Position numbers and translations under genes: made by a program. This document shows, piece after piece, positions 49,443 to 61,760 of a stretch of 64,000 nt of DNA; position 1 is the first letter of the stretch, and every line of letters starts with the position of its first letter. The notes under the pieces are model-generated. The model searched no databases and was not told where the DNA came from. It saw only the letters and a program-made list of their open reading frames with translations. Source of the DNA: Melioribacter roseus P3M-2 (GTDB lineage: Bacteria; Bacteroidota; Ignavibacteria; Ignavibacteriales; Melioribacteraceae); the NCBI RefSeq assembly GCF_000279145.1, contig NC_018178.1:310001-374000 (forward strand), written 5' to 3'.

Positions 49443-50546
49443 TTAATTGATTTGTTCCGCCATGCCGATTGCCTTTTGAGCAATAACGGAGGCGGCTTCC
49501 GGTTTTGAGAATGTTTTTATCGCATCGGATAATTTTTTAAGCTTTTCGTCGTCGTTGATTAATTCGATTAATTTGTTTTTCAATTCCGACGACAAATTTT
49601 TGTCTTCGATTAAAACCGCCGCATTCGACTCAGCCAGGGCAAGAGCGTTGAAATACTGATGATTGGCGGCAACATTCGGAGACGGCACCAGTACAGCCGC
49701 TTTACCGAGAGCGGAAATTTCGGCAATGGTTGTAGCTCCGGCTCTTGCAATTACAAGATCGGAAGCCGAATATGCCGCCCGCATATCCTCGATAAACGGC
49801 ATTGTTTTATTTTTTTCCGTATCATATTTTTTGTACGCGTCATAGTAGAGCTTTCCCGTCTGCCATATTAACTGCAAGTCTTCCTTTTCAAACAAATCCA
49901 CAATTCGAGCCGCCGATTCGTTTAAAGATCTGGCTCCCAGGCTGCCTCCCAAAATCAGTACGGTTTTTTTAGCCGGGTCCAGTCCGAATTTTTTAGCGGC
50001 TTCATTTTTATCTATTAGCGACAAATCAATCCGCACGGGATTTCCCGTAACATAAATTTTGTCCTTAAAACGGAAATACTTCTTACTTTCCTCAAACGCT
50101 ACGTGAATTTCGTTTGCCTTTCTTTCTAGCAGTCTATTAGCGATTCCCGGATAGCTGTTCTGTTCGAGCAATATAATTTTTGAGCCGATTACCGAAGCGG
50201 CCCATACTACGGGACCCGATACATAAGCGCCGCATCCGACGGCGACGCGGGGTTTAAACCGCATCATAAAGAACAGAGACTGAAATGCGGAGGCAATAAG
50301 TTTAACCGGGAACAACAGATTTCTTAAATCGAACTTCCGATAGAATCCGCTTATCCATATATTTTTGAATTCAAACCCGTATTGCGGAACCACGCGCGAT
50401 TCGATTTTATCTTTGTTTCCGAAAAAGACAATTTCGGATTCGGGATGTAATTTCTTAATATACTGAGCTACGGCAATAGCAGGATAAAGATGACCGCCAG
50501 TGCCGCCGGCGGCAAATACAAAGCGATATGGATTCGAATTCTTCAT
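49443..50546 (-). CDS. murG: UDP-GlcNAc:lipid I N-acetylglucosaminyltransferase
   Basis: GT28 enzyme that turns lipid I into lipid II at the inner face of the membrane, 367 aa. N-terminal FAAGGTGGHLYPAIAVAQ is the family glycine motif; the second motif is GGSLGARSLNE; the donor site has ARAGATTIAEISALGKAAVLVPSP. A hydrophobic patch around residues 75-90 fits membrane association. Its ATG overlaps the ftsW stop by four bases. Confidence 0.97.
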   Translation of the reverse strand: MKNSNPYRFVFAAGGTGGHLYPAIAVAQYIKKLHPESEIVFFGNKDKIESRVVPQYGFEFKNIWISGFYRKFDLRNLLFPVKLIASAFQSLFFMMRFKPRVAVGCGAYVSGPVVWAASVIGSKIILLEQNSYPGIANRLLERKANEIHVAFEESKKYFRFKDKIYVTGNPVRIDLSLIDKNEAAKKFGLDPAKKTVLILGGSLGARSLNESAARIVDLFEKEDLQLIWQTGKLYYDAYKKYDTEKNKTMPFIEDMRAAYSASDLVIARAGATTIAEISALGKAAVLVPSPNVAANHQYFNALALAESNAAVLIEDKNLSSELKNKLIELINDDEKLKKLSDAIKTFSKPEAASVIAQKAIGMAEQIN

Positions 50547-51655
50547 CCTACCTGAGCCAGTTTTAATTTTTCCGTCTGCATAGTTTGATATGCCACATTA
50601 ATTATAATTCCTATCGACACGCCCATAAAAACCACCGACGTACCGCCGAAGCTGATGAAAGGAAGCGTAATACCGGTAGTGGGAAAGAGTCCCGTTACGA
50701 CGGCGGCGTTAATGAATGCGCTTACCAGAATATTGAAACCGAGTCCGAAGACGAGCAGCTGACCGAATTTATCCTGAGCTTTTTTCGCAATAATAAGACA
50801 AATGACAAAAAGCGCGAGATAAGTGAATAAAATTAACGCGGTGCCGATAAAACCGGTTTCCTCGCCGATAATCGAAAAGATAAAATCGCCGTACGATTCC
50901 GGCAAAAAGAGGTCGCTCTGCCTGCTGTGTCCGAAGCCCAATCCTTTCAAACCTCCGCTGCCCAGAGCGATTTTTGCCTGAGTTACCTGAATATTAATAT
51001 CGCTTCCGGTCATAAGACTGTTTATATAGTCAAAAAGTCGCTCGCGTGAATGTTTATAGAGCATTACAGCCGAACCCACAAAGAAAATTCCGACGGACAG
51101 AATTCCGGAAATATGTCTGAGACTCGCTCCTCCCACGTAAAGCAGTACGAACGAAGTAAAAGCAATTATCAAACTTGTGCTTACGTTCGGCTGAAGAATG
51201 ATCAATCCGCATACGAGACCGATCCAAACAAGGGCATATGCAAAACCTTTCTTGAAGTCGGCAATCAATTCTCCTTTCCTTTCGATCAGAGCAGACAAAT
51301 GAATTATCAAAAGAATCTTAACCGCTTCGGAAGGTTGAAAACTAAGCAGTCCCAGGTCGAGCCACCTTGCGGCTCCTTTTACTTTAGGGGCAAAAATCAA
51401 AGTGGCAATCAGCAGAACGAGACCCGATATCATCATATATTTACTGTATTTACGAAAAAGGTCATACGGAGTTAATGCAAACGCCGCAATAGCGAACAGA
51501 GCCAGAACAACTTTTAAGATGTGCGACTTGAACATCGAGTAGTAATCGTTATATCTGGTCATGCTGTATGTGCCGCTGGCGGTAAATACCATAATGGCTC
51601 CCAGCAGTACGAGAGCTATAACAAGAATGATCAATATTTTTAAGAGTGTCTTCAT
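50543..51655 (-). CDS. ftsW: Lipid II polymerase FtsW (SEDS family)
   Basis: A 370-aa SEDS glycosyltransferase with ten membrane helices, making septal glycan strands with its partner FtsI. Conserved blocks: GAARWLDLGLLSFQPSEAVKI, QPNVSTSLII (with the region of the catalytic Asp in the following loop family-wide), LPESYGDFIFSIIGEETGFIG and PTTGITLPFISFGGTSVV. Cluster position favours FtsW over RodA. Its ATG abuts the corrected murD stop. Confidence 0.95.
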   Translation of the reverse strand: MKTLLKILIILVIALVLLGAIMVFTASGTYSMTRYNDYYSMFKSHILKVVLALFAIAAFALTPYDLFRKYSKYMMISGLVLLIATLIFAPKVKGAARWLDLGLLSFQPSEAVKILLIIHLSALIERKGELIADFKKGFAYALVWIGLVCGLIILQPNVSTSLIIAFTSFVLLYVGGASLRHISGILSVGIFFVGSAVMLYKHSRERLFDYINSLMTGSDINIQVTQAKIALGSGGLKGLGFGHSRQSDLFLPESYGDFIFSIIGEETGFIGTALILFTYLALFVICLIIAKKAQDKFGQLLVFGLGFNILVSAFINAAVVTGLFPTTGITLPFISFGGTSVVFMGVSIGIIINVAYQTMQTEKLKLAQVG

Positions 51656-53001
51656 TTATTTTAAGTTATTAACCGCTTCTTTAAAAACTTTTCCTCTGTG
51701 TCCGTAATTGTCGAACATATCGAAGCTGGCGCACGCCGGCGACAAAAGGACTACCGACCCCGGTTTGGCTTCTTTTCTTGCCGAAAGAACGCAGCTTTCC
51801 AATGATTGTTTATATTCGGTAGGAACAATATCCTTGAAAAAATCATAAACTTTGTTTGCCGAAGAACCGATAGCATATATTTTTTAACTTTTCGAGCTAC
51901 GAGCTCTTTGATTTTATTGTAATCGTTGCCTTTGTCCTTGCCCCCCAGAATCAAATAAATCGGTTTTTCAAAACTGTTGAGCGCATACCAGACAGAATCG
52001 ACATTAGTAGCTTTCGAATCGTTGTAATATTCAACGCCGGCAAGTTCACGGACAAATTCGATACGGTGTTCCACGCCGCGAAACGACGAAAACGCGCTTT
52101 TAATTTTCTTGTTAGGTATACCGAGTTTTTTTGCCACGGTCAAAACAGCGAGCGCATTCGAAACGTTGTGGGGACCTTTAATAAACAAATCCGAGACGGC
52201 GCAAACCGTCTCCTTGGTCTGATCCGAAAAAATCATATTTCCTTCTTTTACATAAGAACCTTTGAGCATTTCTTTTTGAAGCGAGAACCCGTATTTATTT
52301 ACATCCGCAGCAGGCATAAAATCGATAACATTCCGATCGTCGGAGTTGTAAATCAAAACATCGTTGGCAGTTTGATTTTTGAGAATATTCATTTTCGAGC
52401 GGGCGTAGAGCGCAAAGTCGTTGTTATATCTGTCCAGATGATCGGGAGTAATATTCAAGACAACTGCGAAATCGGGCTTGAAATATTTAATAAAATCGAG
52501 TTGGAAACTCGACGCCTCCAGAACTACGTAATCGTTTTCCCCTATCTCAGTAACGACATCGGAAAAAGGAGTTCCTATATTGCCGGCGGAGAATGTATTG
52601 AAGCCGCTCTGTTTCAATGTAAAGTTCATTAACGAAGTCGTAGTGGTTTTTCCGTTGGTTCCGGTAATTGCAATTGTTTTACCTTTATTGAACCAGCTTG
52701 CAAATTCGAATTCGCTGTATATTTCAATGCCTTTATCTTTTGCTTCTGCCAGAATACCCGAAAACGACGGGACTCCGGGACTCGTTACAATAAAATCGCA
52801 GTCGAATACCTTTTCGGAATGTTTGTCGGTTTCATAAGGAATATTTTCATTTTCCAGAACGGAAATCCATTTAAAAACCGACTGCCTGCTTGCGGAATCG
52901 CTAACGAAAGGCAAAGCGCCCATTTTTTTTGCAAGCTTTGCCGCAGCAATTCCGCTGTCTGCCGCGCCGATTATCGATATTTTTTTCCCTTTAATATCCA
53001 T
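51656..53001 (-). CDS. murD: UDP-N-acetylmuramoyl-L-alanine--D-glutamate ligase, split by a 1-nt frameshift
   Basis: MurD adds D-Glu to UDP-MurNAc-L-Ala and is essential. It starts at the ATG at 53001, sharing one base with the mraY stop. The ATP loop ITGTNGKTTTTSLM and NITPDHLDRYNNDF are intact, as is YNDSKATNVDSV. After LVARKVKK the reading frame is lost at an A6 run (51880-51885); the next frame supplies the true C-terminus (IYAIGSSANKVYDFFKDIVP, then VVLLSPACASFDMFDNYGHRG) and stops at 51656, right against ftsW. One extra A yields a normal 448-aa protein. Uncorrected, the product has about 45 unrelated residues instead of the end of domain 3. Confidence 0.93.
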
Positions 53002-54110
53002 TACCTTATCTTGAACGAAGTTAAACTTATAATAGCCAGTATGATCGTTATTATATAGAAACGAACTACTATTTTGGGTTCCGCCCAATTCAATTGCTCG
53101 AAATGATGATGGATAGGAGCCATTTTGAAAACGCGTCTTCCTTCGCCGTATTTTCTTTTAGTGTACTTGAAATAAAGCCTTTGAATAATTACCGACAGTG
53201 TTTCGGCAAAATAGATACCTCCGAGAATCGGTATCAACAAATCTTTCTTAATTACAATCATCATCACACCGAAAGCGCCGCCCAGAGCGAGCGAACCGGT
53301 GTCTCCCATAAATACGTCGGCCGGATAAAAATTATACCATAAGAACCCGAGTCCCGCGCCTATTAGAGCGGCGATAAATACTGTTAATTCTCCGCTGCCG
53401 GGCAGGTACATTATATTGAGATAATCCGCATAAATAACATTGCCCGTCACGTAAGCGAGTATTGCAAGCGCAAGCATTACAATAATCATCGTGCCGATTG
53501 CCAGTCCGTCGAGTCCGTCCGTTAAATTCACCGCATTTGAAGTTGCCGTTATTATAAAAACGACCCACGGAATGTAGAGATAGGAAAAATCCCAATTCAG
53601 ATTTTTAAAAAACGGCAAAGTAGTTTGAGTATTATACTGCGCAAATTCCGGCAGGTAATAGACCGCCGTCCCCACCACCAAGCCGACAAAAATTTGTCCC
53701 ATTAATTTGTACCGCGCAATCAGACCGGTCGGCAATTTTCTTACAACCTTCAGATAATCGTCAAGAAAACCGATAAAACCGAGAACAATAGTCGCAAATA
53801 GTACGAGCAGTATAAACCTGCTTTTGATATCGCTCCATAATAAAACCGGCACAATTACCGATAGCAGAATAATTATTCCGCCCATCGTCGGCGTGCCCGC
53901 TTTCTTTTTATGAGTCTTCGGACCGTCGTCTCTTATCGGCTGATCGATCTGACTCTCTTTTAATTTTCTAATAATTTTCGGGGCTATCATAAACGACATA
54001 ACAAGAGCCGTAATTGCCGACAAGGCGGATCTGAACGATAAAAACCGGAAGACGTCGAAGCCCGGCGGATTAAAAATTTCGTTTATGTAATCGAATAAAT
54101 AATAAAACAT
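53001..54110 (-). CDS. mraY: Phospho-N-acetylmuramoyl-pentapeptide transferase
   Basis: Ten-helix membrane enzyme making lipid I, 369 aa. Conserved blocks: GPKTHKKKAGTPTMGGIIIL, GFLDDYLKVV (catalytic aspartates), AVNLTDGLDGLAIG, DVFMGDTGSLALGG and the cytoplasmic MAPIHHHFEQLNWAEPKIVVRF. Complete. The ATG shares one base with the murF stop. Confidence 0.98.
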   Translation of the reverse strand: MFYYLFDYINEIFNPPGFDVFRFLSFRSALSAITALVMSFMIAPKIIRKLKESQIDQPIRDDGPKTHKKKAGTPTMGGIIILLSVIVPVLLWSDIKSRFILLVLFATIVLGFIGFLDDYLKVVRKLPTGLIARYKLMGQIFVGLVVGTAVYYLPEFAQYNTQTTLPFFKNLNWDFSYLYIPWVVFIITATSNAVNLTDGLDGLAIGTMIIVMLALAILAYVTGNVIYADYLNIMYLPGSGELTVFIAALIGAGLGFLWYNFYPADVFMGDTGSLALGGAFGVMMIVIKKDLLIPILGGIYFAETLSVIIQRLYFKYTKRKYGEGRRVFKMAPIHHHFEQLNWAEPKIVVRFYIITIILAIISLTSFKIR

Positions 54111-61069: not shown

Positions 61070-61760
61070 TTAATGTGAATTAATCAATTCCTGAGCTTTT
61101 TTACCGATATTGTTATTCGGATTAATTTCGACCGCTTTTCGCCACCACTCGATCGCCTCGTCGTGTTTGCCCGAAGTCAAACTAACGATTCCCAGATTGA
61201 GATGCGCTATCTGATGTTTTGGTTCGTACTTGAGAGCTTCTTTCATCCATTTTTCGGCTTCGGCATAATTCTGCAGGTCATAATAGCAAACTCCCATGTC
61301 CACGAGCACATCGGGATTCTCAGGATCGAATTTCAGATATTCTTTGTACCGGTCGATTGCTTTTTGCTTGAATCCCGAATCGTTCAACATATGAGCCAGA
61401 GTTAGAATTTTTTCTTTATCAGTCGGATTTGTTTTGAGTTCATTCTCAAGAGCGTTGATTTGTTGAAGATTCGACAGGTCTACGCCTTTGTGAACGTCCT
61501 CAAAGCTCTGGTTCGTACTTTGAGCGATTTCCGGTTCGTCGAATATTCCGGAAGAATAAAGAATAACTCCTCCGATAACAATCAGTAAAAGAACAATATA
61601 AATAATTTTATTAAAGCTAAGTTCTTTATCACCCGGGGAATTGTTTTCGGATTTTTTACTTTTTAGTTTTCCCCGTTTTGGCGCCGCAATAAGGACAATA
61701 GACGAACTCTTTTTCGAGCTTTTCGCCGCATACGATACAATTTTTCGTTTCATTGCTCAT
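61070..61760 (-). CDS. Zinc-ribbon and TPR membrane protein, apparent 1-nt frameshift
   Basis: The first frame starts at an ATG at 61760 inside the end of the HU gene and encodes a zinc ribbon with Cys8, Cys11, Cys22 and Cys25 (NCIVCGEKLEKEFVYCPYCG), then stops at 61656. The next frame continues with a linker, one membrane helix (FNKIIYIVLLLIVIGGVILYSS) and three to four TPR repeats to the stop at 61070. Removing one A from the A5 run at 61660-61664 joins them into a 229-aa protein. The continuous longer frame read over the ribbon region gives unlikely basic sequence instead. Such ribbon-TM-TPR proteins probably act as membrane scaffolds; function unknown. Confidence 0.75.

Follow-up and report, generated by a model that had tools for sequence, protein, structure and literature searches.

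A single-base frame break in murD of Melioribacter roseus P3M-2 as a very probable error of the deposited sequence

Within a stretch of 64,000 nucleotides of the Melioribacter roseus P3M-2 genome (contig NC_018178.1, positions 310,001 to 374,000; hereafter the window), the gene murD is recorded on the minus strand in two reading frames, which meet at a run of six A (six T on the plus strand). MurD adds D-glutamate to UDP-MurNAc-L-alanine, and its essentiality is established knowledge of peptidoglycan synthesis. At the break the coding strand reads GTT AAA AAA TAT; the zero frame ends in LVARKVKK and holds the N-terminal and central parts of the protein, and the -1 frame, which reads IYAIGSSANK past the run, holds the C-terminal part including LLSPACASFDMFDNY. 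The zero-frame part alone passes the 211.95-bit cut-off of the murD model TIGR01087, and the match of the same model in the second frame meets the first at the A run (Table 1), leaving no single frame in the record for the whole MurD protein. Past the run the zero frame continues for 42 residues that have no match to the model, with the tryptic peptides ILFLPNINNHWK, and then stops. The -1 frame ends in a TAA (51656-51658) that directly abuts an ATG (51653-51655) of ftsW, a gene named by the look of its protein and by gene order. The initial annotation had placed a one-base shift at this run and had the MurD C-terminus stopping exactly against ftsW, and the sequence and the model matches in two frames agree with it on both points.

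The open reading frame (ORF) listed for murD starts with a TTG at 53088, which is probably too early, as the protein of a relative begins at the residue matching an ATG at 53001 and as this likely start (52999-53001) overlaps by one base the stop (53001-53003) of the preceding gene, which resembles mraY in its look and its place in the gene order. When the 74-residue C-terminal piece was searched alone against Pfam no match was returned, although TIGR01087 matches that frame. Scans with Rfam (at the gathering threshold) and ARAGORN found nothing at the break and one tRNA in the window.

A search with the murD model of the whole genome (3,300,414 bases in one contig, 99.94% complete) returned no second murD above the cut-off, which extends to the chromosome what had been remarked of the window; apart from the C-terminal piece, the model had four other matches, all below the cut-off and all in neighbouring Mur ligase genes. 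The murE gene of the window passes the cut-off of NF001126, the model for the diaminopimelate ligase, in line with the diaminopimelate-type peptidoglycan assumed at the outset. The C-terminal stretch LLSPACASFDMFDNY aligns to residues 408-422 of Escherichia coli MurD, which we take to be contacts for D-glutamate.

We searched for murD in 57 relatives, 54 of which hold it at full length, in one frame and without an internal stop; alignment of the site at the DNA level covered 30 of these 54. All 30 read through in one frame. Seven of them have an uninterrupted A run (seven A in four, eight A in three), and in the rest the run is interrupted, so no slippery run is conserved. No match above the cut-off was found in G021. 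A split shared with G030, where the match stops at profile position 385, or with G019, where it starts at position 176, was considered and rejected, both genes reaching the end of their contigs. The initial annotation had proposed a comparison of murD with related strains, and in the relative from the same genus (G001) murD is unbroken and seven A stand at the site amid nearly identical neighbouring bases, one base more than in the record of M. roseus.

Past the break, the -1 frame shares 94.7% identity with the G001 protein over 75 residues, and of the differences between the two genomes there, 4 are non-synonymous and 22 synonymous (dN/dS 0.032, versus 0.063 before the break), from which the C-terminal frame can be taken as real and beyond chance. 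By this measure the part of murD beyond the break is under strong purifying selection, and the gene has stayed intact up to the very recent past or is intact still. A murD pseudogene finds no support, as there is neither a second copy nor any decay past the break. A genuine and recent loss of one base in the sequenced culture, after which MurD activity would be maintained in another way or be missing from some of the cells, would not have altered the selection pattern of either half. Such a loss is nonetheless extremely improbable, given that the genome holds no second murD, that the lost part includes the stretch aligned to the presumed D-glutamate contacts, and that one mutation would leave unexplained the similar one-base faults that we found in six other sampled genes.

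These faults emerged from a tblastn comparison of six blocks of the M. roseus genome (584,000 bases) with the corresponding contigs of G001 (417,298 bases), using ORFs of at least 120 residues, a procedure that misses breaks near gene ends. The frame appeared broken in M. roseus for nine of the 310 G001 ORFs with a match, and seven of these, murD among them, were kept (2.3% of the 310) after the alignments had been read. The seven genes hold eight one-base events, all at runs of between 5 and 8 A; six lack a base and two have one too many. In five of the events the alignments directly show the A run to be shorter or longer by one base, and the other three (both in the AddA-like gene and the one in the TPR gene) were assigned to the nearest A run via the reading frames. 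Since runs of at least five A or T make up 4.0% of the bases in unbroken genes, chance does not account for the gathering of breaks at A runs, though it should be borne in mind that three of the eight places were assigned by hand. The AddA-like gene, whose 1,175 residues form a single open frame in G001, is broken at two places, both near A runs that seem to lack one base. The TPR gene is likewise in one frame in G001, and in M. roseus its N-terminal zinc ribbon, whose matches fall below the Pfam cut-off, lies in another frame than the rest of the protein, where the record would probably have one A too many, a placement made via the reading frames. In the reverse comparison four M. roseus ORFs were flagged; two mirror the breaks of M. 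roseus itself (murD and the RnfC-like gene), and the other two are breaks in G001, which amount to 2 of 314 genes with three events.

Table 1 Features of the murD locus and of the other frame-broken genes found in the record of M. roseus P3M-2
Feature	Position	Numbering	Strand	Remarks
A6 run (T6 on the plus strand), murD frame break	51880..51885	window	-	seven A in G001 (same genus)
murD, N-terminal and central part, zero frame	51880..53001	window	-	likely ATG to run, start from relative; TIGR01087 1-371, 331.9 bits
murD, C-terminal part, -1 frame with stop	51656..51880	window	-	TIGR01087 347-440, 77.7 bits
Zero-frame tail past the run	51751..51879	window	-	42 codons plus stop, no match to TIGR01087
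ftsW	50543..51655	window	-	ATG adjoins murD stop
TPR protein with N-terminal zinc ribbon	61073-61760	window	-	zinc ribbon in other frame than the rest
AddA-like helicase-nuclease	378024-381537	genome, outside the window		two breaks
RnfC-like gene	2894495-2894714	genome		break at A run
Asparagine-synthase-like gene	892640-892868	genome		break at A run
Thioredoxin-like gene (below Pfam cut-off)	2049373-2049552	genome		break at A run
C25-peptidase gene	2401656-2401836	genome		break at A run

The genome of M. roseus P3M-2T was sequenced in a quarter-plate run of Roche GS FLX Titanium, the sole sequencing machine named in the methods passages, which yielded about 114 Mb of reads; these were assembled with the GS De Novo Assembler (Newbler), and gaps were closed with sequenced PCR fragments (PMC3534657). 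Homopolymer errors are a described fault of 454 pyrosequencing, biased to A and T and commoner in longer runs, and in 454 metagenome assembly they affected 2.13-2.78% of the evaluated genes (PMC3277595). The one-base errors at A/T runs in those assemblies resemble ours in kind, and their frequency resembles our 7 of 310 genes, a likeness to be read with the differences that metagenome and isolate assemblies were evaluated there and one finished chromosome here, and that the counting methods differ. A closer precedent is the 454-based complete genome of Halomonas elongata DSM 2581T, for which 72 corrections were reported in unique regions, 48 of them frameshifts and 37 of these in polynucleotide runs (PMC5552945). 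There too the frame of murD was broken in the record, and the gene (Helo_1959) was entered as "repair of known frameshift" after resequencing (PMC5552945). The repair in H. elongata came from actual resequencing and that of M. roseus is deduced, and the entry for Helo_1959 leaves the kind of fault unstated. The main text of a multi-omics paper on M. roseus (PMC5492636) mentions neither a frameshift, resequencing or a sequencing error nor MurD or peptidoglycan.

The frame break in murD is thus very probably an error of the deposited sequence, a reading favoured by the 454 origin of the record, the seven A in G001, the faults in six other sampled genes and the murD precedent in H. elongata. The true DNA would have seven A at the site, pyrosequencing and Newbler would have called the run one base short, and living M. 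roseus would have an ordinary single-frame murD like that of its relatives, with a MurD that works as usual. Three observations weigh against this. Coverage was about 35-fold (114 Mb over 3.3 Mb), at which runs of six or seven A are usually called right; the errors in H. elongata followed another pattern, with T runs overcalled and C runs undercalled (PMC5552945); and G001 has broken genes too, the difference between 7 of 310 in M. roseus and 2 of 314 in G001 not being significant (Fisher p 0.10). What speaks for a record error is the type of fault together with the sequencing method, and not a greater number of breaks. Between the two options that the initial annotation had left standing, a record that lacks a base and a cell that recodes, the former is strongly favoured, and for the latter we found no positive sign.

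If the six A were real, recoding could take place on the ribosome, where a P-site tRNA-Lys would slip by -1 on AAA AAA before TAT and so yield full-length MurD. Such a slip at the run would rejoin the two parts of the protein, because the -1 frame is open right past it and the upstream stop of that frame (the TAA of GTTAA) lies just before it. Programmed -1 frameshifting is marked by a slippery heptamer X XXY YYZ in the zero frame and by a stimulatory structure 3' of the site. GTT AAA AAA TAT gives T AAA AAA and contains no such heptamer in that frame, and four stretches folded around the site were ordinary, with z from -0.77 to +1.09 (simple folds, without pseudoknots). Neither the frame change nor the site is conserved among the 30 aligned relatives. 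In 299 unbroken genes of M. roseus, a set that leaves out nine ORFs (murD and the pieces of broken genes; with them, 266 in 308 genes), 256 runs of six A share the codon phase of the one in murD, and TAT comes next in 11 of them. The local letters alone therefore do not force a shift, though a count of this sort would not reveal slippage at a low level. A literature search for murD together with programmed frameshifting yielded no paper. A ribosomal slip as the source of MurD is, on these grounds, highly improbable.

Recoding could equally be placed in transcription, with six real A and an RNA polymerase that inserts an extra A into some of the transcripts. In insect endosymbionts, frameshifted genes are rescued by transcriptional slippage (PMC5009743), and the break of a cell-wall gene at an A run is a point of likeness to those cases. 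The endosymbionts have long A runs and reduced genomes, and efficient slippage is named at 9 A or T (PMC5009743), whereas M. roseus has a run of six in a 3.3 Mb genome, is free-living and has a GC content of 41% (PMC3534657). Runs of eight and nine A are also present in M. roseus genes that were counted as intact, and we regard polymerase slippage at the murD run as exceedingly unlikely.

A broader form of recoding, in which the six A at the murD site are real and ribosomes or RNA polymerase make good the short A runs of several genes, is also very unlikely; were it true, a free-living bacterium would depend on recoding for an essential enzyme of its cell wall. The break in murD is almost certainly an ordinary artefact of a database record and not a novel mode of decoding. 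Several dozen false frameshifts are probably present in the record of this type strain: provided that the sampled genes are representative, the rate of 7 in 310 extrapolates to about 64 genes among the 2,838 annotated. A gene that is truncated or missing in the M. roseus record, murD included, should accordingly be checked before its state is read as biology.

Two of the nine ORFs flagged in the comparison with G001 were dropped by hand: contig C55, 4871-6343, in which the break lies upstream of the likely start, and contig C65, 18634-19062, which runs antisense to a putative gene for ribosomal protein L31. A first pass over one block with ORFs from 80 residues flagged extra ORFs that were taken to be antisense or shadow ORFs. 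In G001, one of the two broken genes, on contig C75 at about 89838-90242, gives the impression of a transporter and has two frame breaks, and it is unbroken in M. roseus; the other lies on contig C45 near 24441.
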